Shown here: piece after piece, positions 1,650 through 45,738 of the stretch
How positions within the stretch are numbered: the first letter of the stretch is position 1
Layout: each line of letters begins with the position of its first letter
Assembly: GCA_016124585.1 (NCBI GenBank)
Contig: WGNL01000032.1
Location: 1 to 45,738 of the forward strand
From: Bacteroidota bacterium
Lineage (GTDB): Bacteria; Bacteroidota; Bacteroidia; Chitinophagales; Saprospiraceae
Direction: 5' to 3'
Length of the DNA: 45,738 bases
Notes under the pieces: model-generated
What the model was told of the DNA's origin: nothing
Seen by the model: only the letters and a program-made list of their open reading frames with translations
Database searches by the model: none
Position numbers and translations under genes: made by a program

Positions 1650-2015
1650 TTATTCAAGATTTAGTTGTTTGAAAATGGTTGTAAGGAGTTGGTTAAGGAC
1701 GGCGGAGCATTCCCGCAGTTCATCCGGCATGTCGTCGTGGATATGGAACTTCCTGACGGCTTGGTTGATATTGTTGCCAATAGAGCGGAGTTGAAAGACA
1801 AGCTGCGGGTCAAGGATGGTTTCGCCGTTGTCGTTGGACAGAGCCAGTGCATCCGGCTTTGCGGGCCTATCCAGAAGGCCGCGGACATATTCGCTGACGC
1901 TTTTCCCCATGCTGTGGGCCTGCTGTTTGAAGCGGGCCTTTTCGGCATGGGTGCAGCGGATGGGCGGTAATACCGCCATTAGTTTGTCTGCTTCTTTTTT
2001 CTGCGGTCGTGCCAT
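1650..2015 (-). CDS. mobC: MobC-like relaxosome accessory protein
   Basis: A 121-aa protein immediately upstream of the relaxase and coupled to it. The N-terminal half (about 15-50: IRCTHAEKARFKQQA.. then MGKSVSEYVRGLL) looks like a ribbon-helix-helix DNA-binding fold. The C-terminal half has the MobC signature LRSIGNNINQAVRK (about residues 77-90). In known mobilisable plasmids such proteins bind oriT, help open the DNA at nic and repress the mob operon. The start ATG lies at 2013-2015, with the candidate oriT region directly upstream. Family assignment is firm; the specific DNA target is inferred. Confidence 0.88.
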   Translation of the reverse strand: MARPQKKEADKLMAVLPPIRCTHAEKARFKQQAHSMGKSVSEYVRGLLDRPAKPDALALSNDNGETILDPQLVFQLRSIGNNINQAVRKFHIHDDMPDELRECSAVLNQLLTTIFKQLNLE

Positions 2016-3798: not shown

Positions 3799-4749
3799 CT
3801 ACCCTTTCCCCGGCGTTGGTTTGCCAATGGCGTACTGGCTGCCCTCAAGGATGAAATCGGCTGCCTTCTGCGCTTGGGCGGATGCCCGCACGACGGCCTT
3901 GTTGTCCGCCTTCATCACGCCGAGCCAGCTCTGGATGTAGGCGGCGTTGCTGGTGATGGTCTTCGAGAAGCCAAGGGCTGCGCAGCAAAAGGCCGAGCAA
4001 AGCTCCGCCACGAGTTCCTCCTTGGCGTATTCGAGGTCGCCGAATTCAGCGCCCTTCTCCCGGTCAAGCCTGGACGGGTGGCCCGTCCAGTGGCCGAGTT
4101 CGTGGAGCGCCGTGGCGTAAAAGGGTTCTGCCTCGCCCTTGAACTGCTCCCGGAGCGGTAGCCTGATTTTGTCGGCGCTGCGGTCGTAGTATGCCCGGTT
4201 GCTCTGGGTGATTTCGATGTCCGCTCCGGTGGAGTGGATAAGCCCCTCGGCACGGTCGTCCTTCTCGAAGTCCTGCAAGGGTTCCTGCGGCTGGGCTTCG
4301 TAGAACTTGTCATCAAGCCCTTCCGTCTGGGCCACGTTGAACACCCGGTACAGTTTCAGGACGGGTATCGAGGTAATGCCAGCCTCCTTGAACTGGGCAG
4401 GGGTCATTCCCTCTGCCTTGTCCGGCTTGACATATTTATTGTCTTCGGTGACATAGGCTTTTTTGTAAAAGGCAATCGGCGAAGACTTCTCGCCCTTGAG
4501 GACGTGGCCGCCCAGTTCCTTGACCTGGTTGAACGTGAGCCAGGTGTTTTTAAGGAAGCCCGTTTGGATGAGCGTAAAGCTCAAGAGGAACTGGTTGACG
4601 CCCCGGTAGTATGTCCCGGTATGGGCGTTCCGGGCAAAGTCGTTGTCCTGCCCGAAGGCAATCCAAGGCCTGTTCCAGTCTGTTTTGTGTGCTTCGAGAT
4701 GCTCGATGATGGTGTTGGTAACGGTTTGGTAGATTTCATTGGTCTTCAT
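3799..4749 (-). CDS. ardC: ArdC-type antirestriction protein
   Basis: A 316-aa protein with the two ArdC domains. The N-terminal part (about 1-135), starting MKTNEIYQTVTNTIIEHLE and including YRGVNQFLLS (about 48-57) and LKGEKSSPI, is the ssDNA-binding domain. The C-terminal part is a zincin-type metallopeptidase with HELGH at 216-220, followed by WTGHPSRLDR and a Glu-rich helix (EELVAEL, 245-251) that should supply the third ligand. Known ArdC proteins protect incoming plasmid DNA from host restriction. The open frame extends upstream to 5181, but that extension overlaps the preceding gene and a hairpin, so the start at 4747-4749 (AAGGAAGG upstream) is preferred. Confidence 0.9.
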   Translation of the reverse strand: MKTNEIYQTVTNTIIEHLEAHKTDWNRPWIAFGQDNDFARNAHTGTYYRGVNQFLLSFTLIQTGFLKNTWLTFNQVKELGGHVLKGEKSSPIAFYKKAYVTEDNKYVKPDKAEGMTPAQFKEAGITSIPVLKLYRVFNVAQTEGLDDKFYEAQPQEPLQDFEKDDRAEGLIHSTGADIEITQSNRAYYDRSADKIRLPLREQFKGEAEPFYATALHELGHWTGHPSRLDREKGAEFGDLEYAKEELVAELCSAFCCAALGFSKTITSNAAYIQSWLGVMKADNKAVVRASAQAQKAADFILEGSQYAIGKPTPGKG

Positions 4750-4772
4750 TTCATGGTTCCTTCCTTGCCCTG

Positions 4773-4801
4773 CCCGCACACCCTTTCTCGGGGTGTGCGG
4801 G
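4773..4801. promoter_or_regulatory. Strong hairpin between the 68-aa gene and ardC
   Basis: CCCGCACACCC (4773-4783) is perfectly complementary to GGGTGTGCGGG (4791-4801), with a 7-base loop. It lies in the 68-base gap between two co-directional genes of the ArdC operon. No T-run follows on the minus strand, so it is not a standard intrinsic terminator. It could stabilise mRNA or set ardC expression relative to the upstream gene. Confidence 0.5.
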
Positions 4802-4817
4802 GGTATGTTGCCGATGC

Positions 4818-5024
4818 CTAGTCCTTGACGGGAAAGCCGACGAGTTCGACCTGGCCGTTCAGTGGGATGGGCATGGCATCCAGGAGTATGTTCAGCCCCT
4901 CCCCGTCCTTGTGCCGGAAAGCGACGCCGATGCGCGGGCCTATCCGGGTCTCTGCGCCGTCCGCAACCTTGGTATGGATGTTGAAGTCTGGTCTGCGCCC
5001 TTGTTTTTCGTTTGTGTCCGTCAT
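4818..5024 (-). CDS. Small hypothetical protein upstream of ardC, 68 aa
   Basis: First gene of the ArdC operon. The start ATG at 5022-5024 is chosen because AAAGGAG lies 6 bases upstream; an ATG 11 codons earlier lacks such a site. The leader ACAAACAAAGGAGAA is shared with the DUF6876-like gene at 32283. The protein is small and beta-rich (FNIHTKVADGAETRIGP, then IGVAFRHKDGEGLNILLDAMP and VELVGFPVKD). It has no membrane segment and no recognised catalytic residues. Similar short proteins precede ardC on other Bacteroidota plasmids; their role is unknown. Confidence 0.75.
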   Translation of the reverse strand: MTDTNEKQGRRPDFNIHTKVADGAETRIGPRIGVAFRHKDGEGLNILLDAMPIPLNGQVELVGFPVKD

Positions 5025-5233
5025 TATATTCTCCTTTGTTTGTGTGGTTTCTGACATGAAAGCAAAAAGTCATGCCAGCCGCAAGGCCCAAGGGGATTGT
5101 CAAAGGTCTGCCAAGACCGACAGGCTTGCCTTTTACAATTCCCGTGGAGCATGACAGGTTTAATGTCCAGCAAAGCACCAAGGCAAGGGAGTTGGAAAAT
5201 TACGGAATGGAAAAATCTGGGAAAGACCGCCGC

Positions 5234-6259
5234 TTACGGCAATGGCGGGGCGGGCGGCTCTGAAAAAACGGGTATGTCCCCTGCCCTGAGCGCGTCGTTC
5301 AGGTCAACGTGCGGCTGGAACTTGGTGCTGTGGTTGACGACCTTGTGACCAAAATCCGCAATGAAGTCCTGCGTCCTGGACTGGCCGGGGGCATTGTTGT
5401 CGAGGAAGGTGTTGATGATGCCATATCCCTGCTCCTCGATGTGGGCCTTTGCAAGGCCATAGGACTGGAGGCCGTTGAGTATGATGCTGTCACCGGAAAG
5501 GCAATCAACGCGGAGCATTACGAGCAGGCTAAGGAAATCAAGTTGGCCTTCAAAGAGGTTGACCACTCCCCCACCCTGTTTGCCGGGAACGAAGGTGATG
5601 TCGCGCACGATGAGCGCCGATTTAAAAATGAGCTTCGGGTCGTCGGATGCAGAGCGTATCTCGTACCCCCCTCCCCTATTCTTCATTCCAAAGGCGAAAT
5701 AAGGCCGCTCTGATGGCCTCTGTTTGTTCCGGTAGTGTATGAGCCTCAAATATTTTTGGGCAAACACGCGGGGCACTCCGCGCCCTTCCAGATAGGAAAG
5801 AACGAGCGATGAAGTCAAAGGGGCCTCCTTCACGAACTCAAGGTCGCGGTCGGCCTCGATATTCGGTAAAATGCTGTCCGTAAAATTCACCGGAATTTGC
5901 TGACTAAAAGAAAAGAAATCGGCTTGGTGCTTGTGATTGCCCCCTACCCTACCGCCTTGGAAAGATTGTGGACTGCCCATGGTGCTTTCCAGCCAAGAGA
6001 GGGCATCGGAGACCCGGCAGGGCTTTCCGCTTGTGCGCAGGAACTTGATGGCAAAGTCCAAGGTGTTGCCCCCTTCCGACTCCCCGAAGTCGAACCACGA
6101 GTTTTTGGCCAGGTTTACGTTGAAGGAAGGCTCGGCCTCGGAACGGAACGGTGACAGGTATTTGTGCTCCGTGCGCCCGCGCTCGACTTTTTTCACTTGG
6201 AAGCCAATGCGCTCCATCAGGTCTGCTAACTTTATTTGCTTGGCTTGGTTGGCGTTCAT
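5234..6259 (-). CDS. TOPRIM primase-like protein
   Basis: A 341-aa protein resembling the N-terminal and TOPRIM parts of DnaG-type primases found on Bacteroidota mobile elements. Residues about 34-72 (KYLSPFRSEAEPSFNVN ... WFDFGESEGGNTLDFAI) align by eye with the DnaG zinc-binding domain, but the Cys/His ligands are replaced, so it should not bind zinc. The TOPRIM region follows: an acidic strand near FEGQLDFLSLL, then ILNGLQSYGLAKAHI and NTFLDNNAPGQSRTQDF with the DxxxPG-like metal site. It ends in a Pro-rich tail. Likely role: priming of plasmid or transferred-strand synthesis. It is transcribed leftward from beside the 42-bp palindrome at 6285. Confidence 0.8.
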   Translation of the reverse strand: MNANQAKQIKLADLMERIGFQVKKVERGRTEHKYLSPFRSEAEPSFNVNLAKNSWFDFGESEGGNTLDFAIKFLRTSGKPCRVSDALSWLESTMGSPQSFQGGRVGGNHKHQADFFSFSQQIPVNFTDSILPNIEADRDLEFVKEAPLTSSLVLSYLEGRGVPRVFAQKYLRLIHYRNKQRPSERPYFAFGMKNRGGGYEIRSASDDPKLIFKSALIVRDITFVPGKQGGGVVNLFEGQLDFLSLLVMLRVDCLSGDSIILNGLQSYGLAKAHIEEQGYGIINTFLDNNAPGQSRTQDFIADFGHKVVNHSTKFQPHVDLNDALRAGDIPVFSEPPAPPLP

Positions 6260-6606: not shown

Positions 6607-7278
6607 TTAGAACTTAAACTTTTTCAAAAACTCTTTGAAGAATGGCCCAAAGCGCCTTTCCCCTTCCGCGTTGTCCAACACGCTTTCGTAGGTGAAGGGC
6701 TTGGAGAGTGCCTTCACATCGGAGAGCGAGTTCTCAAACATGGGAACGCCGAGCTTTTTCATGAACGCCACGGCCTCGTCGTTCTCGCTCCTTTGGTTGC
6801 GCTTGTTCAGGAAGCCCCAGTAGGTGAAGGAAAAACCCTTCTCTGATTTGTATTCGTCAATCCCCTTGACCAGTTTGATAAACTCTATGGTGCTCAGGCC
6901 TTCCAAGTCCCCGGCCACAATGGGTATGAGCAGGTAGTCGCAGTAGGTGATGGCTGTTGAAAGCTGGCTGTCCTCGCTGCCTTCGGTAAGGCGCGGCACG
7001 TCGATGAAAATCACGTCGTACTTGCTGCGCAGGTGGCGGATTTCATCGAAGAGGAATTTGGGCTGCACCCGTTCAATGGGGTAGGGCGGCGCTGCCCCGC
7101 CATAGACGGATTGCTGTTCAAATTCGCGGTACTTGAACGCGCTTTGCTGGCTGTCGGTGTCAAGGACCATAACCTTCAGTTTTTTCTTTTTGGCCAGTGC
7201 CGTTGCAAGGTGGAGCGTGATGCTGGTCTTACCAAGCCCTCCTTTCCTGTGCGCAACCGATATGATTTTTGCATCCAT
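6607..7278 (-). CDS. parA: ParA partition ATPase
   Basis: A 223-aa ParA/MinD-family ATPase. The deviant Walker A box RKGGLGKTS is at about residues 11-19, the A' box VLDTDSQQS follows at about 38-46, and the Walker B strand VIFIDVPRL at about 94-102. There is no N-terminal DNA-binding HTH, so it is the short (type Ib) form in which the partner protein does the repression. It positions plasmid copies over the nucleoid before division. It lies in an operon with the ribbon-helix-helix gene at 6602 and is preceded by A/T-rich boxes at 7349-7410. Confidence 0.92.
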   Translation of the reverse strand: MDAKIISVAHRKGGLGKTSITLHLATALAKKKKLKVMVLDTDSQQSAFKYREFEQQSVYGGAAPPYPIERVQPKFLFDEIRHLRSKYDVIFIDVPRLTEGSEDSQLSTAITYCDYLLIPIVAGDLEGLSTIEFIKLVKGIDEYKSEKGFSFTYWGFLNKRNQRSENDEAVAFMKKLGVPMFENSLSDVKALSKPFTYESVLDNAEGERRFGPFFKEFLKKFKF

Positions 7279-8291: not shown

Positions 8292-9698
8292 ATGCAAACC
8301 GAAAAAACAAAATTCCTGGTCACGCAGTCGAATAAGCTGATAGAGGCCAACTACTCGGCAAACCTCACGACGCTTGCGCATAAGGTGGCCAAGCTAATCT
8401 TAGGCTTCGTGAACCCGGAGGAGCAATGCGAAAAAATCAGCATAACGGTCGATATCAGCAAGCTCAAATATTATCTAGGGTGGGTGCAGGGCAAGAAATG
8501 GAACCGGTTTCCGAGCGACCTGAAGGACATTTCCAAACGGCTGAACAAAGAACCCATCGAGATTGCCATCAACGACGATGAAGTCCTAGTCGTCTATTTT
8601 CTATCCTCGTACAGGCTGAACATTGCCAAGGGCGAGGTAACATTCAATGTGTCTCCTGAGCTTGTTCCGTACCTGACCCAGCTCAAAAAGAACTTCACGA
8701 CCTATCAACTCAATTACATCCCGAAGCTCACAAGCTCCTATGCCATCCGCATGTACGAACTGTTCCACCAATACCTTAGAATCGGCAACCGCAGGTTTAC
8801 TATTGAAGATTTCAGGAAAAAAGTGGGCGCACCGGAATCCTACAAATACAATGACCTGAAAAAAAGGGTCATCATCCCCGCGCAGGAACAACTCAAGGAA
8901 AACACCAACCTGGCCTTCATGTACAGCGAAATCAAGGAAGGCCGCAGCGTGGCCGAACTGGTGTTTGTCATCTTCGGGAACACCCCAGTCCAGAACAAGG
9001 CGCAAATGGAACTGAGCTTTCTAGCCGACACCATAGAGGAGGGGGAGGAGGTCGAGCCAGCCTTTTCCGGGGAAATCGTGGGTACTTTGAAGGGCATCGG
9101 CATCACCGACCAGAACATCATCAAGTACCTTGCCCAAGGCTTTGACATTATCGGTGACAAGGAGCGCATACCAACGGCCATTGAGCGCTGCAAAAACCTT
9201 GAGGGCTACTACCGCGAAAAGCTGGCGCTGGCCGAGCGCTCGAACAGCAGGAGCAATACGGCCGGGTTTGTCGTCAAGGCGCTCAGGGAGGACTGGGTGA
9301 GCGACAAGGCACTGCAAGAGCACAAGGGCAGGGTGGCGACCAAAAAGCACCATGACAAGGAAAACAAAATCAAGGCGCTCGAAAAGCAGGTGGAGGAACT
9401 GTCCAGAAAATGGGAAGGCATCAAAGCGCCACTCGTCGAGAGCCTGATGGCCGACGAAGCCATCACGAAATCCGTTTACGACACCGTCCTTGATGGCATG
9501 GGCGGGGTGATGAGGCAGCACCTTTCAAAGATTCTGCACTTGCCAATCTTTGAACAGTACAATGAAAGCCCTTTTATTCACAGCGGGATGAACGTGGAGT
9601 TTGCAAGGCGCTATCCCGAACAATTTGCCAAGGCCGAAGAAGTGCTGGCGCAGATAAAAAAAACCAACAAGGACATTGAGTTTTTAAATAAAACATAA
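8292..9698 (+). CDS. rep: Rep_3-family replication initiator
   Basis: A 468-aa initiator with the two winged-helix halves of Rep_3 proteins. The N-terminal WH1 region starts near VTQSNKLIEANYSANLTTLAHKVAKLIL (about 10-37). The WH2 region contains LTSSYAIRMYELFHQYLRIGNRRFTIEDFRKKVG, then YNDLKKRVIIPAQEQLKENTNL. The last 200 residues are a long charged helical extension absent from the shortest family members. The protein binds the iterons at 7698-8210 to open the origin and should repress itself at 8229-8262. The start ATG lies about 20 bases after the -7 element, so the leader is very short. Confidence 0.92.
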   Translation: MQTEKTKFLVTQSNKLIEANYSANLTTLAHKVAKLILGFVNPEEQCEKISITVDISKLKYYLGWVQGKKWNRFPSDLKDISKRLNKEPIEIAINDDEVLVVYFLSSYRLNIAKGEVTFNVSPELVPYLTQLKKNFTTYQLNYIPKLTSSYAIRMYELFHQYLRIGNRRFTIEDFRKKVGAPESYKYNDLKKRVIIPAQEQLKENTNLAFMYSEIKEGRSVAELVFVIFGNTPVQNKAQMELSFLADTIEEGEEVEPAFSGEIVGTLKGIGITDQNIIKYLAQGFDIIGDKERIPTAIERCKNLEGYYREKLALAERSNSRSNTAGFVVKALREDWVSDKALQEHKGRVATKKHHDKENKIKALEKQVEELSRKWEGIKAPLVESLMADEAITKSVYDTVLDGMGGVMRQHLSKILHLPIFEQYNESPFIHSGMNVEFARRYPEQFAKAEEVLAQIKKTNKDIEFLNKT

Positions 9699-18993: not shown

Positions 18994-19003
18994 GCGAATA
19001 CAA

Positions 19004-19037
19004 AACTCCCCGTGGGCTTGTTTTCCCACGGGGAGTT
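19004..19037 (-). terminator. Intergenic hairpin between the two T9SS genes
   Basis: AACTCCCCGTGGG (19004-19016) is perfectly complementary to CCCACGGGGAGTT (19025-19037), with an 8-base loop. On the minus strand it is followed by TTTTG. It fills most of the 56-base gap between the two genes. It can act as a terminator or attenuator, or shape the 5' leader of the downstream gene. Confidence 0.65.
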
Positions 19038-19049
19038 GTTGGTTATTAA

Positions 19050-29487: not shown

Positions 29488-29566
29488 AACTTGTCGGTTT
29501 TATCTGGAATATTGCTCCGTCAAAACTGACAATCTACTTTTCATTCATTGTTCAAAAATTGATAAA

Positions 29567-30190
29567 ATGAACATCATAATCTACGAAGACAGGCAAAATC
29601 AGCGTCAATCCTTGGAGTTGTGGATAAATAACCACCCTCAGTTTAGTGTTGTTGGTGCATTTCCCAATTGCAAAAACGTTGAGGCTGAAATGCATGGCTT
29701 AAAGCCCGAAATAGTATTGATGGACATAGACATGCCGGAGGTGGGCGGAATTGAAGGGGTGATACGGATTAAGGAATTGAACCCAGATATTAAAATCTTG
29801 ATGTTTACCGCTTTTGAAGATGACGACAAGCTTTTCCCGGCACTGGAAGCCGGGGCAGATGGCTATTTGCTCAAGACGGACATAGATAGCCTATTCCCAG
29901 CCCTAAAGGATGTTCATGCAGGAGGGGCAGCAATGTCGCCCGGCATAGCAAAAAAGGTACTAGATTCTTTCCGCCAGCAAAAAACATCGGATAAAAAATA
30001 TGAACTCACCAAACGGGAAAGAGAAATCCTTGAACTGCTCACCAAAGGTTACACCTACAAAGAAATCTCCAGCACTTGCTACATCAGCATGGACACCGTT
30101 TCAACCCATCTTCGCCATATCTATGCAAAGCTCCATGTGAATTGCGGTACTGCTGCGGTAGCTAAGGCCATTAAAGAGAGAATAATATAG
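29567..30190 (+). CDS. NarL/FixJ-type response regulator (207 aa)
   Basis: The receiver domain has the acidic pair Glu7-Asp8, phosphoacceptor Asp53 (VLMDIDMP), Thr in LMFTAFEDD and Lys in GYLLKTD. A LuxR-type output domain follows: LTKREREILELLTKGYTYKEISSTCYIS, then MDTVSTHLRHIYAKLHV. It is the natural partner of the HisKA_3 kinase upstream. The ATG at 29567 (MNIIIYEDR) is chosen because it gives the normal receiver start; the frame is open 29 codons earlier, overlapping the kinase end. Confidence 0.92.
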   Translation: MNIIIYEDRQNQRQSLELWINNHPQFSVVGAFPNCKNVEAEMHGLKPEIVLMDIDMPEVGGIEGVIRIKELNPDIKILMFTAFEDDDKLFPALEAGADGYLLKTDIDSLFPALKDVHAGGAAMSPGIAKKVLDSFRQQKTSDKKYELTKREREILELLTKGYTYKEISSTCYISMDTVSTHLRHIYAKLHVNCGTAAVAKAIKERII

Positions 30191-34278: not shown

Positions 34279-34315
34279 ACGGCGTTGGCTCCCTGCCAAC
34301 GCCGTTGGCGTTTTT
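34279..34315 (+). terminator. Intrinsic terminator after the PLAAT-like gene
   Basis: ACGGCGTTGGC (34279-34289) is perfectly complementary to GCCAACGCCGT (34295-34305), loop TCCCT, followed by TGGCGTTTTT. It begins directly at the stop codon. It also covers the alternative upstream start (34285) of the next gene, which favours the ATG at 34348. Confidence 0.75.
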
Positions 34316-34347
34316 CAGGGTGCGGCTATGAACTAAAACATCAGCGA

Positions 34348-35169
34348 ATGGACTTTATACTCATTGTCCTTGGCATCGCCATTCTTTCAATCTGGCTTCC
34401 GCACCTAAGCAACGAGGGACTGAGGCCGGAACTTGAAGGCATGAGGATTGGCTTCTCCCTTTCACTTATTGGTGTGTCCTTCAAGTGGATGTGGGAAAAC
34501 CGCAAAGACCTGAAATTATGGGTTCAATCATTGAACCCATTCGTGCCGAAGCCGTGCATCAGGCTCTCCATTGCCTACCTGTACCGGATTCACATCAACG
34601 GCAAGTACCTTTTGATTAGGAATGGGCGAGACCAAAGCCATGCCTTCCAGCCTGTCGGCGGGGTGTACAAGTATTTTCCGGGGGAGAACCGGGACGGGTT
34701 CGAGCGCCTTGGAATCATCACGGATGCCAAGATGGAAAACGACGAACGGAGCGAGAGCGACCTGCGGCTGCACCTCAAGCACAGGCGCAAGCTCCCGGCC
34801 TTCCTGAAATGGTTCGGCAAGGGTAGGAACAGGGAGGTTGACCCTTGGCGGGAGTTCTATGAGGAACTGGTCAAGCCGTGCATCCTTCCGGCAACGGCAT
34901 TCCCTTACGTCCAATACACGCATTTGGGCACGCACCGTACAGGAATACAATTCTCGGAGAAGTTCCAGAAATGCGAACTGCTGCTGGCCGATATTTTTGA
35001 ACTCCTGCCGAACGTGGTGCAAAAGGAAGCCCTGTTGCACTTACAGCGGAAAGGACACCCCGACATCATCTGGGCCACGGAGGGCGAAATCCAAGTAGGC
35101 CGACAAAATGGCAACATAATCCTGCCCCATGCCAAGAAACTCTTTGATTATCAACCTATTAACTCATAA
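34348..35169 (+). CDS. CBASS 2TM-NUDIX effector (Cap16-like)
   Basis: A 273-aa protein with two N-terminal transmembrane helices (about 2-18 FILIVLGIAILSIWLP and 33-49 IGFSLSLIGVSFKWMW). A cytosolic SMODS-associated NUDIX-like domain follows: YLLIRN, then FQPVGGVYKYFPGEN (about 91-105), a degenerate NUDIX helix WREFYEELV, and TGIQFSEKFQKCELLLADIFEL. In CBASS such effectors are thought to bind the cyclic nucleotide through the NUDIX-like part and disrupt the membrane. The canonical GX5EX7REUXEEXGU box is incomplete, so hydrolysis is unlikely. The ATG at 34348 is chosen because the earlier one lies in the terminator. Nine bases separate it from the CD-NTase gene. Confidence 0.82.
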   Translation: MDFILIVLGIAILSIWLPHLSNEGLRPELEGMRIGFSLSLIGVSFKWMWENRKDLKLWVQSLNPFVPKPCIRLSIAYLYRIHINGKYLLIRNGRDQSHAFQPVGGVYKYFPGENRDGFERLGIITDAKMENDERSESDLRLHLKHRRKLPAFLKWFGKGRNREVDPWREFYEELVKPCILPATAFPYVQYTHLGTHRTGIQFSEKFQKCELLLADIFELLPNVVQKEALLHLQRKGHPDIIWATEGEIQVGRQNGNIILPHAKKLFDYQPINS

Positions 35170-35178
35170 TAATCCAGT

Positions 35179-36315
35179 ATGACACTGTTTACAGACCAAC
35201 ATGTCCAGATTGACGATTTGCTCGACAAGATGGCCGAGGAGCTTGAACTTGGCGAGACCAGGTGGAAGCGCATGGAATCCAGTTACAACGAAGTCTCCGA
35301 TTGGCTCAAGGGCGACGACGGGTATTTTCAGCAAACCGAGTTTGAGATTTATCCCCAGGGTTCAGTCAAAATCGGCACAGCCATAAAACCTTGGAAGGGC
35401 GATGAGTTCGACCTCGACGTGGTGGTTCACCTCAAGGACTTTGACCCGGCCCTGCTGCCGCTGATTGTCTTCACCAGGTTGAAAAGGCGTTTGGCGGAGC
35501 ATGGGTATTACAAGACGATACTTGAATCCAAGAACCGCTGCATCCGGCTGAACTTCAAGAACGACTACCACATGGACGTTCTTCCGGGATGCCAGATTAG
35601 CGAGTTCAACCGCAACCAGATAAGGATTCCCGACCGGGCACTGGACATGTGGGTGTTCAGCAACCCCCGTGGGTTTGCAAAGTGGTTCCTTGACCAAACG
35701 AACCTTGCCAGGGAAACCCTCCTTGAAAAAGCCTACGCGGAACTGAGGCAGGAACAGATTACAAGGGCCACGTTCATGAACAAGCCGCTGCAGCGGGCCG
35801 TGCAGTTGATGAAGTGGTACAGGGACAGGTATTTCGATGGCCGTGACTACGCCACGTCGAGCATTGTCCTGACCACGTTGTTTGGCCTCAACTATTCTGG
35901 GGAGGGCAGCATCTTCGAGACGATTGAAAACACGCTGGAAAAAATCCATGCCCACGTCGTCCAGAACCCCTTTACCCGCATCGAGGTGCGCAACCCGGTT
36001 GACACCAACGAGGACTTCACGGACAAGTGGAAACAAGAACCGGAATATTACCAAGCCTTCAAGGGTTTTGCCGTCCATGTGTATGGCGAGTGGCAGAAAC
36101 TGAAAACAGGGCAGGGCATGGTGGGAGAGTCAAAAATCCTCAAGGGGCTTTTCGGCGACGACCTTTATGGCCGGGGAATCAAGCGGCAGGCGGGGTTGGT
36201 CAACGATATGCGGGGAAGCCAGTTGCTTGGAACAAGCAACTCCACAGGGAACTTGTCGTCCATCATCTTGCCCGCTGTTACACCGACCAAGCGGAACACA
36301 TTCTTTGGTAAATAA
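35179..36315 (+). CDS. CBASS CD-NTase (cGAS/DncV-like nucleotidyltransferase)
   Basis: A 378-aa enzyme that should make a cyclic oligonucleotide alarm on phage infection. The nucleotidyltransferase core has PQGSVKIGT (Gly61-Ser62), the metal-binding DEFDLDVVV (Asp78 and Asp80) and the third acid Asp133 in YHMDVLPG. The helical C-terminal half has QRAVQLMKWYRDRYF and TSSIVLTTLFG, typical of the OAS-like fold. The C-terminus (NTFFGK) is the part E2 enzymes act on in type II CBASS. It lies between the effector and E2 genes with 9-base gaps on both sides, so the three form an operon. The nucleotide product cannot be told from sequence. Confidence 0.9.
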   Translation: MTLFTDQHVQIDDLLDKMAEELELGETRWKRMESSYNEVSDWLKGDDGYFQQTEFEIYPQGSVKIGTAIKPWKGDEFDLDVVVHLKDFDPALLPLIVFTRLKRRLAEHGYYKTILESKNRCIRLNFKNDYHMDVLPGCQISEFNRNQIRIPDRALDMWVFSNPRGFAKWFLDQTNLARETLLEKAYAELRQEQITRATFMNKPLQRAVQLMKWYRDRYFDGRDYATSSIVLTTLFGLNYSGEGSIFETIENTLEKIHAHVVQNPFTRIEVRNPVDTNEDFTDKWKQEPEYYQAFKGFAVHVYGEWQKLKTGQGMVGESKILKGLFGDDLYGRGIKRQAGLVNDMRGSQLLGTSNSTGNLSSIILPAVTPTKRNTFFGK

Positions 36316-36324
36316 TCGAACGCT

Positions 36325-36792
36325 ATGAGTTACCAAAAAAAGGGGGGGCTTCCCTTGGGCGAACAATGCGCCCATATGCGGGCAATGTTCCCCCAATTCA
36401 AGACTGCACTTGAAAAGGGCAGCATGATAGTGGAAGGCAAACTCCGGCCCACGGCACGGAGCAGGGAATATTCCTTCAAGCTCAACTATGCCTTGGGGCG
36501 TCACCCTGACATCGCCATCACCGACCCGCCATTGGTGCGTAATTTCAAGGGCGATAAAATCCCGCATGTTTACGAGAGGCTGCGCCTTTGCCTGTTCCAG
36601 CCCAGGTACTACGAATTCACTTCTAGTGTTTACCTGAGCGACACCGTGATTGGCTGGATTTCTTTGTGGCTGTACTTTTACGAGGTCTGGCATGTGTGCG
36701 GTGAATGGCTCGGCGGGGGTGAGCACCCAAAGAAGGAAATGAGTCGGCCAAGTGCAAAAAAAAGAGGTAAAAAAAGAGCCGAAACTACTTGA
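36325..36792 (+). CDS. CBASS stand-alone E2-like protein
   Basis: A 155-aa protein. The conserved core runs from ERLRLCLFQP (Cys89, the probable catalytic cysteine) through TSSVYLSDTVIGWISLWLYFYEVWHVCGEWLGGGEH, matching the W..WL..YE.W...G.W.GGG.H pattern of CBASS E2 domains. The C-terminus is Lys/Arg-rich. No E1 or JAB gene is present, so this is the short type II CBASS form, in which the E2 alone is known to modify the CD-NTase and raise its activity. The gene follows the CD-NTase by 9 bases. Confidence 0.8.
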   Translation: MSYQKKGGLPLGEQCAHMRAMFPQFKTALEKGSMIVEGKLRPTARSREYSFKLNYALGRHPDIAITDPPLVRNFKGDKIPHVYERLRLCLFQPRYYEFTSSVYLSDTVIGWISLWLYFYEVWHVCGEWLGGGEHPKKEMSRPSAKKRGKKRAETT

Positions 36793-38029: not shown

Positions 38030-38662
38030 CTATCTGCCACGGTCAAAATCCATGCTGCGGCTCTGCTCTTGTGGCCGTGTCCTTCCTGTGACAGACCTAA
38101 AGATACAGTCTTCCATTTTATCGTAATTCGCTTTCATGGCCTCGATTGAAGCCTGCGTCCACTCATCCTTGTCAAGCCGGGTAAGGTCAATTTTGTAACC
38201 CGCCCGTTCGCCGAGTTGCTTTAGGTAGTGCAACTGCGTCCGGCCATTCCCCTCACGAAAGGGGTGGGCGTAGTTGACATTACCGATAACGACCCCTGCC
38301 TTTTTTGCAAAAATATCCTGTGGCAGGCCCTGGAGGTAGTTTTGGCCGTTTAGCCGTTTATGGACATCCTGAAAGCCAAAGCTGATACGGTTCGGGGGCA
38401 TGAACACACTGCCTCCCTTGTGGATTTGGGTCTGGCGGATTTCTCCCGCCCATTCATAGACATCCTGAAAAAGATGTTTGTGAATAGCTTGCAGGTGCTT
38501 CAAATCAAAGCCGCCTGACGGGACGCCTTCAACGGAGCGCCTGGTTGTTATCTGGCGCTCCAATCGGTCGAGGTCTTTATGCTCCCCGATTTCAAGTTTG
38601 TTCCGCAGTACTTCACTACCAGGGTATTTGTAAAGGTGTCGGTCGAGTTCATCGTTGTTCAT
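38030..38662 (-). CDS. Fic-domain protein
   Basis: A 210-aa Fic/DOC protein. The active loop HPFREGNGR is complete (His133, Glu137, Arg141), but the final Arg of the HxFx(D/E)GNGRxxR motif is Leu144 (RTQLHYLKQL). An upstream flap strand, QIHKGGSVFMPP, is present. Fic enzymes transfer AMP or other nucleotide groups to target proteins; the last Arg normally contacts the ATP gamma-phosphate and the inhibitory Glu. It overlaps the small upstream antitoxin-like gene by 4 bases. The layout is that of VbhA/VbhT-type toxin-antitoxin pairs. Confidence 0.88.
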   Translation of the reverse strand: MNNDELDRHLYKYPGSEVLRNKLEIGEHKDLDRLERQITTRRSVEGVPSGGFDLKHLQAIHKHLFQDVYEWAGEIRQTQIHKGGSVFMPPNRISFGFQDVHKRLNGQNYLQGLPQDIFAKKAGVVIGNVNYAHPFREGNGRTQLHYLKQLGERAGYKIDLTRLDKDEWTQASIEAMKANYDKMEDCIFRSVTGRTRPQEQSRSMDFDRGR

Positions 38663-38871
38663 TCTGCGGCAAGGTTTTTATCATCCGATTTGCCCCTGAA
38701 CTGCCCCAAAATATACTCCCGGCATTTTTCGTCAGACCATCCCTCATGCTCGAACATTTCAAACATGGCGATTTCTTCGAGGGTCAATGGGTTGCCCTCA
38801 ATTTTTTGCAAATTGATTGCTTCGGCAAGGCGGTGCTTGCGTTTTTCGACCTCTAAGTTCGATTGTTCCAT
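38659..38871 (-). CDS. Small Fic antitoxin-like protein (70 aa)
   Basis: The first gene of the Fic operon; its stop overlaps the fic start. It has an N-terminal helix (EVEKRKHRLAEAINLQKIEGNPLT) in which Glu25-Gly26 fits the inhibitory (S/T)xxxE(G/N) motif of Fic antitoxins, but the Ser/Thr position is Leu21. The rest is LTLEEIAMFEMFEHEGW, then DEKCREYILGQF. The probable role is to block the Fic active site by inserting the helix. The assignment rests on position and the partial motif. Confidence 0.7.
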   Translation of the reverse strand: MEQSNLEVEKRKHRLAEAINLQKIEGNPLTLEEIAMFEMFEHEGWSDEKCREYILGQFRGKSDDKNLAAE

Positions 38872-40348: not shown

Positions 40349-41836
40349 ATGAAAAAACATGTCAAAATTTCTATCGTTATTGTCCTGAGTATTGCCTCAA
40401 ACCTCATCTTTTCGGGCTGCAAGAGCGAATTACTGGTCTTCGAGGAACCCCTCCCCTCCAAAGCCAATGATTTGAATGATTTCCCGGATTCATTAGAAGG
40501 TCTCTATTCCAAAGAGGATACCTTGCTTGTTTCGATAATAAAAACAAAAAGGGGGCTTTTGAGCTTGATGACATTCATTGATATTGACAGATGCCCATCT
40601 TACAAGAAAATGCTCTCCAAAAATCAAATCGACCTTGTTGATGTCGAAGGTATTACGCTCAAAGACCATGATTGGCTTAGGGAATTCGAAAAATCAAACA
40701 AAAAGAAAATTCCGTTAATAAATTTTCAAAACGGGAACTACGCTCTTAAAGCCTACGAAACAACAACCACAACATTTTCAATCCAAAAAAACAACGGACC
40801 ACTAAAAAAAGAGTCAATTCCCGGTATTTTGAGGGAAGGTAAGGGCAATTACTATTTCAATATCAAATTGGATTCTCTTGAAAATAGATGGCTAGTCGTT
40901 AGGTTTGCAGAGGAAAAAAATAGTCTTTACATAAATTATAGCATTAGCCTTGGTGAACATACATTTACAGAATATTTTAAAGACTATAGTAAGGTTAAAC
41001 CCGAAAGTGATACCTCTTCAACTTTCGTTTCAACGCTCTCCTATGTTTTAGCACTTAGATTGTTTGAAACCCCAGATTTGTTTGATGGCTTTGAGTTGAA
41101 AAAAACAGAGACAAGTCGCTCATGGGTTATTCTAATCGCCAAAGCCATTTCCATTCTTCTCGGCATTTTTATGCTAATGGGTCTGATAACATCAACCGTA
41201 GAATACAGAGAAAAAATAGAACATTACGAAAAAAAATACGGAATAAACATCGGTGATTTCCCTATCAGTAAATACAAGCAACCACTAAGCTTGACTCCCC
41301 TCGCAGTATTCGCTGTTATAGCATTGATGGCCGTTTTTGTGATATATTTCCCGAACAAGCTGCAAATGTTGTTTGGGCAATCCCTTCTTGATTTAGACCC
41401 CTGGAGTGCACCCAAAACATTTTTGAGTTGGCTGAACGCCTCCATCCTTATGATTCCAGCCGCTTGGGTAGTGGTGGTGAGCCTTGGAACTACGCAAGAG
41501 GAAATGCTTGGGGAACTGGAAAGGCATGATGCGCTTTACAGTGGCTGCATCCAAGCCGAAAACGAATTCCTAGTATCAGCAAAAGGTTTCGGTATAAATA
41601 CGGAACCAAAAGCCAGTAACCGAACAGATAAATACAACTCCATGTTGGAAACGGTAAATTTTAGGTACAAACACCTTGCTGCTCTAGTATCGATGAGTAG
41701 CGAAGGGTGGGCGGAGTTCAAACATTTTGCGCAGCTTGACTATGCGCACAAAAGGACTAAGGAATTATATGATGCGCTGGTTTCAAAGCACTCGGAATAT
41801 CAGAAAATTTTTGGCAATTTTCGCCGCTATGGATGA
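40349..41836 (+). CDS. Lipoprotein-like membrane protein with three C-terminal helices (495 aa)
   Basis: A lipoprotein signal peptide ends at Cys24 (NLIFSGC). About 230 residues of polar, probably periplasmic sequence follow. Three transmembrane helices come next (about 260-284 WVILIAKAISILLGIFMLMG, 322-340 LAVFAVIALMAVFVIYF, 368-388 ILMIPAAWVVVVSLG), then a cytoplasmic tail with FRYKHLAALVSMSSEGWAEFKH. AAAGGAAA precedes the ATG. The gene is A/T-rich compared with the coupling-protein gene, with which its 3' end overlaps by 10 bases in convergent orientation. Family unknown. Confidence 0.65.
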   Translation: MKKHVKISIVIVLSIASNLIFSGCKSELLVFEEPLPSKANDLNDFPDSLEGLYSKEDTLLVSIIKTKRGLLSLMTFIDIDRCPSYKKMLSKNQIDLVDVEGITLKDHDWLREFEKSNKKKIPLINFQNGNYALKAYETTTTTFSIQKNNGPLKKESIPGILREGKGNYYFNIKLDSLENRWLVVRFAEEKNSLYINYSISLGEHTFTEYFKDYSKVKPESDTSSTFVSTLSYVLALRLFETPDLFDGFELKKTETSRSWVILIAKAISILLGIFMLMGLITSTVEYREKIEHYEKKYGINIGDFPISKYKQPLSLTPLAVFAVIALMAVFVIYFPNKLQMLFGQSLLDLDPWSAPKTFLSWLNASILMIPAAWVVVVSLGTTQEEMLGELERHDALYSGCIQAENEFLVSAKGFGINTEPKASNRTDKYNSMLETVNFRYKHLAALVSMSSEGWAEFKHFAQLDYAHKRTKELYDALVSKHSEYQKIFGNFRRYG

Positions 41837-44800
41837 CCTTCAAAGGACTTATCATCCATCCCGTTCCTTTTCATGAAGAACTCGTGCCGCCATTGGTTTT
41901 CCCTCTCTATGGCCAGTTCGAGGGCGTTGTGCATGTTGGAACGAATGAAATACAGCATGTTGACAAACCAGTTCCTCACCGCTTCGCACTCGTTCACTTT
42001 TTCCAGCAGCAGGTTAATGTGGCGCTCTATCTGCTCAATGAACCTTTTCACGATGTCTGCATAGTTCTGTGCTAGCCAGGCCTGGTCGTCCCCTGTCAGA
42101 TGGTATTGCCCGTCACGGTTGTTTTCGACGCCCATCAATGGGAGGTTTTTGTACGCCCCGACTGTCTCGATGTTCAACCCGGAAACCTGGGCCGCGAGTT
42201 CCTCTAGGAATTGCATGTTGGCCACAAGCTCATCGTCCGCATCCTGGAAAAAATTGGCCACCTCGACCTTCTTCATGGCCGAAATCATCCCCAACGCCAC
42301 GACCGCCACCTCGTCAAAGCCCTCTTTCTGCTTCATGATGCGCTTCTCGATGTCCTTCACCTTTTCGATGACCTGCCCGGGGACTTTCCCTCCAAACAAT
42401 TCCTTATAGGACTGAATCATGGAAATGGGGTCGGGGTTTTTATCCAATGGAATTGTTTTTTTTTTCAGTTCCTCCATCCACACAACCTCCTTTACCAAAG
42501 TGACGAGATGGTCGGTGAACGGTTCTACCAGTTCCCGCCGAGCCGATACGATGTCCAAGACTTCGATGTCCGCCATTGATGCCATATCGGGGAACATGAA
42601 ACGGTCAACGTCCATGAACTTCACGAAATAGGACATGCGGGGTGCAAAGAACGGGTGGTGACCACGGACTTGCAGGAGCTGGTTGCGGCCTGAAAGTTTT
42701 TCCCGGAGGCTGCGGACGGTTTCAATCTTCATCCGTTCCTGTTTCACCGTTACGCTGCGCCCCCTGGCCAAGGATTGGGAAGTCGAATGGGTTTCCGACG
42801 CCGAGGTGCTGCGCCCTTCCTGAAAGCCCTCGGTCTTGGTCGTCCCTTCCGTTGTCGAGGTGCTTTTGGACGTGCTTTTGGAGGTGGACTTGCTTTCTCC
42901 ATAGCTCCTTCCCTTTGTCTCGCCGTAGCTTGATGATGCACCTTCATTCGTTGACGTGCCGCTGCCGAAAGACGTGCCTTTGTTTTGGGAGCTTCCCTTA
43001 GTACTGCCCCCAGAAGTGCCTTTGCTGGCATTGTCGCTGACGTTTGAACTCCCAAGGAAATTTCGCTTGTTTGTTTCCCCCACACCTTTGTTCCATCCAT
43101 CCGAGGACGATACTGACGACCCTGTGCCGGAGGTGTTTCCTGTATTGGTGGAGTGGCCAAAGGTCTTGTTTTTACCCTTGGTCTTTGTTGTCGAAAAGTT
43201 TCTGCCCCAGTTGATGGTAGAGCCTTCGGTGAACGAGTCTGATGTGCCGACGGTCTTGGAAAGGGACTGGGAATTGCTGATGGTACGGGAATGGCTGTCG
43301 GTATGTGACTGGCCGTGTGAGACGGAACTGCCCTCCGTTACCGTCTCGCTGATGGTCACGCTCTGCACGTCGTAAAACTCCTCCCCGATGAGGCGGCTGA
43401 AATACTCCAGTTCTTCCAGTTCGTTCGACCCGAAAACTTGCAGGGATGCGGCGTTGCCAATAATGGTTCTGGCCTTTTCCTTTCCATAGGTGCTTTCGAG
43501 CTGTGCCAGGTTCTGGATGAACAGCCATAGGTTGACCCCCCTCCCCCTCAGCGTGGCCATGCCGCTGCTGATGATGTCGAGCTGGCCGAAGGCCGGGAGT
43601 TCGTCGAGCAGGAACAAGACCCGTTCGTCCTGCCTCATCTGGCTGGTGCTGATGCCCTTTGAGCTGTGTACGTCCTTGAGCGAGAACACGGCGCTTTCCA
43701 GCATGAGGCGCACCCATATAGCGCAGTTGTCTATGAACTCTTCCGGGACGACCAGATAGACCGTCATTTTCCCGTCCTGCATCTCGTCAAAGGAAAACGA
43801 GGAATCCTCGATGATGCCCTCGAATGACTTGTTGCCTACCCACATCAAAAGGGTTTGGGCCTGGACAAGGGCGTTGTCCGTTATCTTGGTGGTGGCCTTG
43901 CTCTCGGTCAATATTTTGAGTAGCCCCTTCAACTGGCGGTCGTCCTGTGCGTTGGGGTCGTTCTTGATGATGCCCTCCAATTCGATAATGAACTTTTCCA
44001 TTTCGGGCGGCGAGTAGTTCAGTACATCTAGTATTTCCACGAGGTTGTGCCTGTAAGGGGGCCAGTACCTGACGCATAGGGTTAACAGCCCGCTCAGTAG
44101 CTTCTTGGTAGCGTTGTCCCAGATGGGTTCTTGGCTCATACGCCCGGATGGGTCGAACATGAGGGCTTGGGTAAGGCGTTGTATGCGGTCGTCGGATGAA
44201 CGGCTGTCTAGGTCTTGCACGAGGCGGTCGAACGGGTTGTAGGAATCGCTCCCCCACCTGCCGTTTGTTATGTTGAAGGGGTCAATCACGACCACGTTGT
44301 GGCCTTGCAACCTTCTGGCCATTGCGGTCTTGGCCACCGTCTCGCCCCGGATGTCAACCACAAAGGCAGAACCCGGATGGTCGAGCAGGTTGGGGATGAT
44401 GAGGCCCGTTCCCTTCCCGCCACCCGTGGGGGCTATCGTCAAAAGGTGGGCGTCCGTATTGAAGCGCAAAAGTTCGTTGCCGAGCCGTCCGACGATGTAC
44501 CCTTGGTTGGAACGCAAAAGGGTCTGTATGCCCGTCGTGTCGGTCGGGTCGAGTTCCAGGCTCTGGTGGTCAACCAGCCCCCTCGCCACTGGATTGGGGG
44601 CATGGTGCGCCCCACCGTCTTGGACTGGCTGCACCTGTGAACTGGAGCTTTTCTCAGCAGTGTCCCTTAAAAGGAAAATGGGCTGGTCGTATCCGACTTC
44701 CTGCCCGTCGTTGACAAGTACCTCCTCTATCCAGCCATCAAGCTCGCTCTCTATTTCGTTGAACAGCTTCATGGCTTCAATCATGCAAATGACATCGCCC

Positions 44801-44913
44801 TTTTTTATCCTTTGCCCAGTGGAGACAAAAGGGGTCGTGTTCGGTCTTGAGCCTTTGTGGAAAACCCCCACCATAGGGGATTTTATTTTTTGAAAGTTGA
44901 TGTTGTGGTTCAT
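41827..44913 (-). CDS. TraG/VirD4-type coupling protein with N-terminal biotinyl domain
   Basis: A 1028-aa protein. Residues 9-82 are a complete biotin-carboxyl-carrier-like domain: SPMVGVFHKGSRPNTTPFV (thumb region) and IEAMKLFNEIES, with Lys49 in the EAMK motif biotin ligase uses. A short linker replaces the usual two membrane helices. The TraG/VirD4 ATPase follows: IAPTGGGKGTG (Walker A, Lys167), DIRGETVAKTA, then a Walker B region VLFLLDELPAFGQLD and WLFIQNLAQLES. Residues about 515-715 are a Ser/Gly/Thr-rich insertion, placed where VirD4 proteins have a short linker. The C-terminal 250 residues are helical. Coupling proteins bring relaxase-DNA to the transfer channel. No channel genes are on the plasmid. 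Confidence 0.9.
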   Translation of the reverse strand: MNHNINFQKIKSPMVGVFHKGSRPNTTPFVSTGQRIKKGDVICMIEAMKLFNEIESELDGWIEEVLVNDGQEVGYDQPIFLLRDTAEKSSSSQVQPVQDGGAHHAPNPVARGLVDHQSLELDPTDTTGIQTLLRSNQGYIVGRLGNELLRFNTDAHLLTIAPTGGGKGTGLIIPNLLDHPGSAFVVDIRGETVAKTAMARRLQGHNVVVIDPFNITNGRWGSDSYNPFDRLVQDLDSRSSDDRIQRLTQALMFDPSGRMSQEPIWDNATKKLLSGLLTLCVRYWPPYRHNLVEILDVLNYSPPEMEKFIIELEGIIKNDPNAQDDRQLKGLLKILTESKATTKITDNALVQAQTLLMWVGNKSFEGIIEDSSFSFDEMQDGKMTVYLVVPEEFIDNCAIWVRLMLESAVFSLKDVHSSKGISTSQMRQDERVLFLLDELPAFGQLDIISSGMATLRGRGVNLWLFIQNLAQLESTYGKEKARTIIGNAASLQVFGSNELEELEYFSRLIGEEFYDVQSVTISETVTEGSSVSHGQSHTDSHSRTISNSQSLSKTVGTSDSFTEGSTINWGRNFSTTKTKGKNKTFGHSTNTGNTSGTGSSVSSSDGWNKGVGETNKRNFLGSSNVSDNASKGTSGGSTKGSSQNKGTSFGSGTSTNEGASSSYGETKGRSYGESKSTSKSTSKSTSTTEGTTKTEGFQEGRSTSASETHSTSQSLARGRSVTVKQERMKIETVRSLREKLSGRNQLLQVRGHHPFFAPRMSYFVKFMDVDRFMFPDMASMADIEVLDIVSARRELVEPFTDHLVTLVKEVVWMEELKKKTIPLDKNPDPISMIQSYKELFGGKVPGQVIEKVKDIEKRIMKQKEGFDEVAVVALGMISAMKKVEVANFFQDADDELVANMQFLEELAAQVSGLNIETVGAYKNLPLMGVENNRDGQYHLTGDDQAWLAQNYADIVKRFIEQIERHINLLLEKVNECEAVRNWFVNMLYFIRSNMHNALELAIERENQWRHEFFMKRNGMDDKSFEGHP

Positions 44914-44940: not shown

Positions 44941-44952
44941 TATAAAAATAGT
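44941..44952. promoter_or_regulatory. TATAAAAATAGT box upstream of the coupling protein
   Basis: On the minus strand this reads ACTATTTTTATA, matching the centre of the palindrome at 6285-6326. It lies 28 bases before the coupling-protein start and touches the stop codon of the preceding gene. It may place the gene under the same regulator as the partition genes. Confidence 0.35.
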
Positions 44953-45335
44953 TAATGGCTGGTATTGCCCCCACCGTCATCCCATCCAAAGTTCTTGGCG
45001 TCGAACAGCCAGTGTGGGTTTTTGCCGTATTTTTCTTCATAAACTGCCTGTTCTTCTGGGGTCGTGTATTCGGTCAACCTACGCCGTACCCAATCTAACG
45101 CCCACTCATAAAATTTTCTCACATCGTCCGTTTTTTGGAAAAACCTTTGGTCTTCCCGCTTCATTGCAAGGTCGAGGGCAGCATTTATAAGCCCTTCGCA
45201 GACCTGCCACCGGGTGAAACCCCGCTCATCCTCGAACACCTTTGCCATTTCCATCACGAAGCACCACACCTCTGACGATTCCGGGTTATTCGCAATGTAT
45301 TCACTGTAATAATCTTTTTCCGTATCTTCACTCAT
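44952..45335 (-). CDS. Hypothetical protein upstream of the coupling protein (127 aa)
   Basis: An acidic, helical protein (MSEDTEKDYYSEYIANNP; WCFVMEMAKVFEDERGFTRWQVCEGLINAALDLAMKR; KFYEWALDWVRRRL) with an aromatic, Gly-rich end. The ATG at 45333-45335 is used; the earlier TTG has no support. It lies 38 bases before the coupling-protein gene on the same strand and is probably in its operon. No family is recognised. Confidence 0.65.
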   Translation of the reverse strand: MSEDTEKDYYSEYIANNPESSEVWCFVMEMAKVFEDERGFTRWQVCEGLINAALDLAMKREDQRFFQKTDDVRKFYEWALDWVRRRLTEYTTPEEQAVYEEKYGKNPHWLFDAKNFGWDDGGGNTSH

Positions 45336-45365
45336 CAAAATATCCCTAACTCAAAATCATGGCAT

Positions 45366-45738
45366 ATGGCAACTACTGACCAGTTTAACAGAACGGCAGA
45401 ACAAAGTGTACAAAATCGTATAACCCCTTATAAACTCAACGAAAATGAGAAGATGGAGGTCTGGCAACTGGTAGACAAAAGAAACAAGGACGTTCAGGAG
45501 GAAAGGAAGGATTTCAGGGAGAATTGGCAAGAGCGCTTCGATACCGAATTGGATAGACTGGGGGGTGAGCAAAGACCGCAGCCACAGCTAAACCACCCTG
45601 GCGACCGCCAGATGATGACCGATATGCAGATGCGTCAACAGGCACAGCGCAATATTCAGCAAGACCACCTCAATACGACCCGCAATATTGAGCGGACGGC
45701 GGACAAGAATATAGATATGGTCTTGGACAATGCCAGGA
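45366..45738 (+). CDS. Hydrophilic plasmid protein, 5' part (continues at position 1)
   Basis: The ATG at 45366-45368 opens a frame that runs off the window end. On the circle it ends at 218 after 149 codons. The N-terminal part MATTDQFNRTAEQSVQNRI is followed by a helix-forming acidic/basic region (NENEKMEVWQLVDKRNKDVQEERKD) and a Gln/Asn-rich part that continues into 1-218. It is divergent from the genes leading to the coupling protein, with a 30-base gap. Confidence 0.75.
   Translation, partial: MATTDQFNRTAEQSVQNRITPYKLNENEKMEVWQLVDKRNKDVQEERKDFRENWQERFDTELDRLGGEQRPQPQLNHPGDRQMMTDMQMRQQAQRNIQQDHLNTTRNIERTADKNIDMVLDNAR
45598..45738. repeat. Terminal direct repeat (right copy)
   Basis: Identical to 1-141. 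It shows the contig is circular. Confidence 0.95.

Follow-up and report, generated by a model that had tools for sequence, protein, structure and literature searches.

Coupling proteins of the VirD4/TraG family (PF02534) have a core with Walker A and Walker B motifs and are encoded near a relaxase gene, and both features are found in the protein described here, a type IV coupling protein (T4CP) encoded by the minus strand of a circular Bacteroidota contig. It differs from the family in having no N-terminal transmembrane domain (TMD), in carrying a biotinyl domain at that end, and in its Ser/Thr/Gly-rich stretch of 201 residues and its long C-terminal part. The whole 45,738-nt contig, WGNL01000032.1 of assembly GCA_016124585.1, is called the window below, and the product of positions 41827-44913 is called the window protein. 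A single relative with the same N-terminal domain was found, on a plasmid of Lewinella sp. JB7.

The literature already recognises coupling-type ATPases with no predicted membrane domain as a subfamily, 'T4CP Lacking TMD', with TraJ of pIP501 as an example (PMC7434980, in the sections cited here). According to the same sections, some of these proteins have a small membrane partner protein, the T4CP anchor also serves oligomerisation, and the mechanism by which the proteins lacking it oligomerise is unknown. TraJ resembles the window protein in having no predicted membrane domain, but those sections mention no biotinyl domain in it, and pIP501 encodes its own secretion system (PMC9083827, in the part cited), whereas no VirB4-type ATPase was found in the hosts of the window and of the Lewinella plasmid. 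MobB of CloDF13 (MOBC1) offers the likeness of a mobilisable plasmid that has its own relaxase and T4CP and needs a helper channel; MobB differs in having a TMD, without which it is inactive (PMC7431656, in the sections cited). The initial annotation of the window had found a soluble, biotin-bearing coupling protein unfamiliar from conjugation systems. Anchor-free coupling proteins were known before; it is the biotinyl head that is new.

This head resembles the biotinyl domain of AccB/BCCP (1bdo, 4hr7) in sequence, in predicted fold, in a loop of thumb length and in an EAMK motif with Lys49 in the window copy. It differs in lacking the N-terminal half of AccB and in being fused to a motor, and the Lewinella copy has no lysine at the site. 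The E. coli biotinyl domain is said, from work by Cronan in 2001, to act as a dimer. The Lewinella copy finds a model in the plant BADC proteins, which are BCCP-like, have no biotin motif, are 25-30% identical to BCCP and are described as an assembly 'glue' in the carboxylase, others seeing them as inhibitors (PMC11926652, in the sections cited). BADC proteins differ from it in that they are part of the plant acetyl-CoA carboxylase and not of a DNA transfer system.

The biotinyl head and the motor

The fusion lies in a single uninterrupted frame of 1028 aa, with an ATG start and no internal stops. Pfam matched the motor to T4SS-DNA_transf (PF02534) over residues 125-539 (E 1.3e-57) and to TraG-D_C (PF12696), the TraM-recognition part, over residues 431-542 (E 1.7e-24). 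The initial annotation had described a TraG/VirD4 ATPase with both Walker motifs intact, and this is what we found (Walker A at residue 161 and Walker B, LLDEL, at residue 435).

It had also read the head as a full AccB-type domain. Pfam Biotin_lipoyl was found at residues 9-81 (E 1.4e-19; 70.1 bits, cut-off 22.1), and the solved structures nearest to the head by sequence are those of E. coli AccB (phmmer, residues 8-82, E 2e-16). For comparison with AccB proteins, 31 loci (L002, L004-L031, L046 and L047) were searched and 30 yielded the domain, L028 being dropped. In a hidden Markov model (HMM) made from these 30 domains, residues 1-100 of the window protein scored 114.1 bits, and 2000 shuffled heads, 1000 from the head of each plasmid, scored at most 10.2 bits. 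This HMM leans towards the window head, because 28 of its 30 rows were picked as best hits of that head; the Pfam result is free of such bias. An AlphaFold2 (AF2) model made from two sequences had predicted local distance difference test (pLDDT) values, in 10-residue blocks, of 43-79 over residues 1-90 and mostly below 50 beyond. When this model was submitted to Foldseek it matched E. coli AccB (4hr7_G) over 76 columns, with a TM-score on the target (TMt) of 0.89 and a root mean square deviation of 1.7; the range of the model in this match is not printed, and the barrel strands are predicted in the head.

Since a row was accepted only if it contained SP[MIL] and [AV]MK, conservation of the S, P, M and K columns is built into the AccB set. 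Of 28 columns with a conservation of at least 95% across the 30 rows, the window head keeps 21, including E46, A47, M48, K49, L50, N52, E53, I54 and E55; it is intact at every AccB-conserved position of the EAMKL.NEIE stretch. With the demanded S, P, M and K left out, 24 conserved columns remain, of which the window head keeps 17 and the Lewinella head 9. EAMK is present at residues 46-49, as the initial annotation had it, and the lysine of the biotin site is Lys49. The thumb segment that it described was found in part: there is a loop of thumb length in which Pro24 is kept, but where at least 95% of the 30 rows have a tyrosine, the window head has His19. By our alignment, the His19 column would be that of the thumb-loop tyrosine linked to E. 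coli BCCP function and the Pro24 column that of the conserved thumb proline, both as given in the sections of PMC11926652 cited above. The window head looks fit for BirA, yet altered where carboxylase work may be affected. BirA (TIGR00121) was found in both hosts, those of the window and of the Lewinella plasmid, and equally in all 14 control genomes. With its entire EAMK context preserved and a BirA in its host, the window copy is probably biotinylated by that enzyme.

A second plasmid with the same domain order

The same domain order was sought in other Bacteroidota plasmids and was found on contig15 of Lewinella sp. JB7 (NZ_JANCTD010000015.1, 27,030 bases; locus L032), the ends of which overlap by 123 bp, so that it is circular. 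The window is the entire contig C3 of a 6.63-Mb genome, and an exact 141-bp overlap of its ends closes it into a circle of about 45.6 kb. Lewinella belongs to the Lewinellaceae (Saprospirales, Bacteroidota; NCBI), and the window genome is placed in the same family as the Lewinella sp. JB7 genome. The two plasmids have in common the gene order NikA/MobC, relaxase, open reading frame (ORF), small gene, coupling protein, and in the window the relaxase and NikA/MobC genes lie near the coupling protein across the junction of the circular contig. The Lewinella relaxase was identified from Pfam and its NikA/MobC counterpart from blastp. Further blastp pairs between the plasmids include a KilA-N protein (30%), an integrase (35%) and other short frames.

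Neither host genome contained a VirB4-type ATPase recognised by PF03135 or by PF19044, models that rang in 1 of 14 and 7 of 14 control genomes, respectively. The window plasmid looks mobilisable, having its own relaxase and coupling protein and no channel detectable with the VirB4 models. Since no VirB4-type ATPase was found in either host, transfer would need a helper.

The two coupling proteins are 45% identical (blastp). The motors are 70% identical over 365 columns (62-73% across four segments) and form a joint clade with support of 100/99, on a long branch apart from 25 other cores. In the linker, 5 of 17 aligned positions are identical (29%). Identity to the Lewinella protein is 38% over window residues 531-720, 68% over residues 721-782 and 22% over the last 246 residues (783-1028). 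Both proteins have, after the motor and between conserved flanks, a stretch rich in Ser, Thr, Gly and Asn (201 residues and 64% in the window, 213 residues and 62% in Lewinella); the maximum content of these residues in 21 other coupling-protein frames was 41% over 80 residues. The Ser/Thr positions of this stretch appear to have a weak period of 4 in the window and none in Lewinella.

The domains are 31-35% identical to each other. In the Lewinella head EAMK (46-49) is replaced by RTNR, all four residues being changed, so the domain cannot take biotin at that site. The head still passes the Pfam Biotin_lipoyl cut-off (26.9 bits against 22.1) and scores 35.5 bits in the AccB HMM, where the best of the 2000 shuffles reached 10.2. 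It keeps 11 of the 28 AccB-conserved columns (S12, P13, G16, G33, C43, I54, G60, V63, Q77, L79 and F80 in window numbering), and these look like fold positions. Its descent from AccB is suggested mainly by the loop of thumb length, by the position of the fusion and by its window relative.

Searches for further members

A scan of genome contigs with the window protein alone returned no loci, and with the pair alignment it returned Lewinella and two Paenibacillus AccB; scans of viral contigs with three alignments returned no relatives. Whole genomes were then drawn and searched with residues 102-1028, at E 1e-10 for the family draw, 1e-30 for the order and genus draws and 1e-40 for the phylum, class and other-family draws. 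Eleven of 398 family genomes matched, two with the biotin-headed family, as did five of 298 order genomes, again two with that family. Among 21 genomes of the genus Lewinella one matched and was biotin-headed, and among 14 genomes of the host genus two matched, one of them biotin-headed. The 395 phylum genomes gave eight matches, of which only the window was biotin-headed, the 295 class genomes gave the window only, and 20 genomes of another family gave none. These draws overlap, the window being present in five of the seven, and the larger ones scored two to three candidates per genome, so that rare members may have been missed. A draw of 298 family genomes with the full-length protein returned mostly AccB.

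A tblastn search of plasmids with the window protein gave at least 5000 records; no record among the 5000 considered spans 80% of the query, and the 40 matches listed are confined to the motor, at about 30-33%. With the window head, the best 60 of 304 plasmid records include no named transfer protein; these are accB, biotin/lipoyl-containing or other carboxylase names, or have no feature. The Lewinella head matched 11 plasmid records, all named accB or biotin/lipoyl-containing protein, and the whole Lewinella protein matched nine phage records, in the motor only. A search of the open-licence literature of PubMed Central (PMC) found nothing on a biotin domain together with a coupling protein, which does not imply its absence from print beyond that collection.

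Predicted absence of a membrane anchor

No transmembrane segment is predicted in the window protein, in line with the initial annotation; the highest 19-residue Kyte-Doolittle mean is 1.28 over the whole protein and 0.57 before the core. The annotation went on to place the biotinyl domain in the position of the membrane anchor. The domain is present and no anchor is predicted, but the replacement of one by the other is something that we infer, since there are relatives that are anchor-free without the domain. Seven of 27 coupling-protein cores lack a predicted membrane segment ahead of them: window, Lewinella, L003, L041, L043, L037 and L039. L003 is from a species of the host genus, and L037 and L039 are more distant relatives. 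On the core tree the anchor state requires four changes, at least three of them by the starred branches, and in 22 relative frames (a set that does not include L061-L064) the AccB HMM found the head in Lewinella only. Judged from this tree, the absence of the anchor arose repeatedly and is not tied to the head. Because anchor-free relatives without the domain occur, the anchor may have been lost and the domain acquired in separate events.

L003, L041, L043, L037 and L039 are coupling-protein-like ATPases with neither a predicted membrane segment nor a biotinyl head, and come from the same family or order. As regards a small membrane partner, none of the ORF pairs common to both plasmids (E 1e-4) looked membrane-like, as judged by eye only. 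Directly downstream of the coupling protein there is in Lewinella a gene of 157 aa whose product starts with a hydrophobic segment, and in the window a convergent gene. The latter (40349-41836; 495 aa) shares its last 10 bases with the end of the coupling-protein gene, belongs to no Pfam or PADLOC family, and has, by eye, a lipoprotein-like start and several hydrophobic stretches.

Origin of the head

The window head is 52% identical to the AccB of its host and 46% to the two Paenibacillus rows. Its identity to the other 28 rows, all from its own family, is 47-56%, values that lean high since these rows were chosen as best hits to this head. A recent copy of the host accB was considered as the source and rejected, given the 52% identity and a place in the tree outside the supported clade of host-genus AccB (99/97, 4 rows). 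In the AccB-domain tree the Lewinella branch is very long, at 10 changes per column, and the exact place of the window head is unsettled. The same position and a similar linker in both plasmids favour a single fusion; the domain tree neither supports nor excludes one.

Possible functions of the head

In our judgement the chances are about even that this AccB-derived head, on the anchor-free coupling protein of a mobilisable plasmid, is a docking or oligomerisation head whose main task is independent of biotin. The head would sit on the side of the motor where other coupling proteins have their membrane anchor and act there as a protein-contact module, holding the motor to the secretion channel of a helper element, to the relaxosome or to its neighbours in a ring. 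Lys49 of the window protein would be biotinylated by the host BirA, and the main task would have no need of biotin because the Lewinella copy has no biotin site. In favour of such a head are the two circular plasmids with the same mobilisation gene order and a joint motor clade (100/99), and a domain that is still recognisable in Lewinella despite the change of all four EAMK residues. By analogy, the likeness to BADC proteins supports the role of a contact module. Several results weigh on the other side. Biotin-headed coupling proteins are few, two members having been found. The two heads were joined in 0% of 200 bootstrap trees, and only three residues common to both are rare in AccB (permutation p = 0.18). 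At 31-35% identity against 62-73%, the domain has diverged far more than the motor, a pattern that relaxed constraint would also produce. When the Lewinella head is compared with PDB sequences, lipoyl domains of E2 enzymes come first (E 1.4e-5), and E. coli AccB matches at E 0.03. No usable AF2 model was obtained for the Lewinella domain (mean pLDDT 43.7), nor for the window motor, where the two-sequence model had a mean pLDDT of 37.3 over residues 1-541.

The initial annotation suggested that biotin could dock the protein, link transfer to acyl-CoA metabolism or be an assembly tag. That biotin is the point of the fusion is not supported, and roles for which biotin is needed, such as the link to acyl-CoA metabolism or biotin docking, cannot hold for both members, since Lewinella has RTNR in place of EAMK with its Lys49. 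A core function for biotin would make the Lewinella copy an exception. A working biotin confined to the window lineage, in which biotinylated Lys49 docks on a carboxylase or other partner, or senses the status of biotin or its ligase, with the contact switched in Lewinella, seems to us rather doubtful. It would account for the intact EAMKL.NEIE context of a head that as a whole shares only 46-56% identity with the 30 AccB rows and, lying outside the host-genus clade (99/97), has not been copied recently from the host gene; the host also has BirA. Against it, Lewinella kept the domain and lost the site, and with His19 in place of the conserved tyrosine a full carboxylase role would be doubtful. 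From these sequence comparisons, biotin is probably real in the window and not obligatory across the two-member family. We think it quite unlikely that, beyond biotinylation of Lys49 by the host BirA, the holo-domains form a membrane-side ring or dock the motor, the sister lineage having a biotin-free docking module. If this were true, a cofactor tag would have replaced a transmembrane anchor, and transfer would depend on biotin status in the window lineage.

The head may instead be a passenger, an AccB fragment that was acquired in front of a coupling protein already without an anchor, is tolerated, and slowly decays in one lineage. The anchor-free relatives without a significant AccB HMM match (L003, L041 and L043, and the more distant L037 and L039) are what this would predict, as are a domain that evolves faster than the motor and a motif lost in Lewinella. 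We regard it as unlikely, however, because both plasmids keep the head in frame and at near-equal length, when other paired proteins are down to 28-54% identity, and because little of the AccB domain is missing from the window copy (114 bits). A decoy that competes with the host AccB for BirA or biotin carboxylase, coupling transfer to fatty acid synthesis or perturbing it, is very unlikely: the resemblance to the host AccB (52%) speaks for it and the remainder would be conjecture, while coupling proteins are usually scarce in the cell, and a Lewinella domain without the lysine would not be a substrate of the ligase. Scarcely credible is a chimera of the assembly, in which a fragment of chromosomal accB was joined to a plasmid gene. 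Nothing was found to speak for it, and we rejected it from the sequence, given a circular contig, a homologous fusion in a second genome and a head only 52% identical to the host accB.

Other features of the window plasmid

The features of the coupling-protein gene and of its plasmid are listed in Table 1.

Table 1. Coordinates of features in the window (identities are to the Lewinella sp. JB7 plasmid)
Feature	Position	Strand	Basis
Coupling protein (T4CP) gene, 1028 aa	41827..44913	-	ORF list, translation, Pfam
AccB-type biotinyl domain, residues 1-85	44659..44913	-	Pfam 9-81, PDB sequences 8-82, Foldseek
EAMK biotinylation motif, residues 46-49	44767..44778	-	translation
Linker, residues 86-118	44560..44658	-	window/Lewinella pair alignment
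VirD4/TraG nucleotide-binding core, residues 119-540	43294..44559	-	Pfam PF02534 and PF12696; Lewinella alignment
Walker A, APTGGGKG, residues 161-168	44410..44433	-	translation
Walker B, LLDEL, residues 435-439	43597..43611	-	translation
Ser/Thr/Gly/Asn-rich stretch, residues 520-720, 64% S+T+G+N	42754..43356	-	composition
C-terminal part, residues 721-1028	41830..42753	-	window/Lewinella alignment
Small gene directly upstream of coupling protein	44952..45338	-	blastp, 38%
ORF spanning contig end (circular)	45366..45738	+	blastp, 41% to ORF at same place
Relaxase, MobA/VirD2-like, PF03432	222..1649	-	Pfam; 37% to relaxase
NikA/MobC-like mobilisation protein	1650..2015	-	blastp, 28%
ArdC-like antirestriction protein	3799..5181	-	blastp, 54%
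DnaG zinc-finger/Toprim protein	5234..6259	-	blastp, 46%
ParA-type ATPase	6607..7278	-	family on Lewinella plasmid too; no blastp pair at 1e-4
Rep3-type replication initiator	8292..9698	+	family on Lewinella plasmid too; no blastp pair at 1e-4

Several further genes were observed on the plasmid. A defence operon resembling a cyclic-oligonucleotide-based anti-phage signalling system (CBASS) occupies positions 34285-36792 and consists of a NUDIX effector (Sa_NUDIX in Pfam, the '2TM' effector in PADLOC), a CD-NTase (SMODS) and an E2-like protein. Positions 38030-38871 contain the gene of a Fic/Doc-family protein (PF02661; PADLOC PDC-S04) and, upstream of it with a 4-base overlap, a small gene; the two are possibly a toxin-antitoxin pair. 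Two large PKD-domain proteins with Por secretion tails, presumably cargo of type IX secretion, are encoded at 17242-22763, and a histidine kinase with a two-component regulator propeller and a LuxR-type response regulator at 26419-30190.

Implications for anchor-free coupling proteins

An 85-residue head placed where an anchor would sit, and available both with and without a biotin site, would make it testable how anchor-free coupling proteins find their channel and form rings. The head would also exemplify the recruitment of a metabolic carrier domain to DNA transfer.

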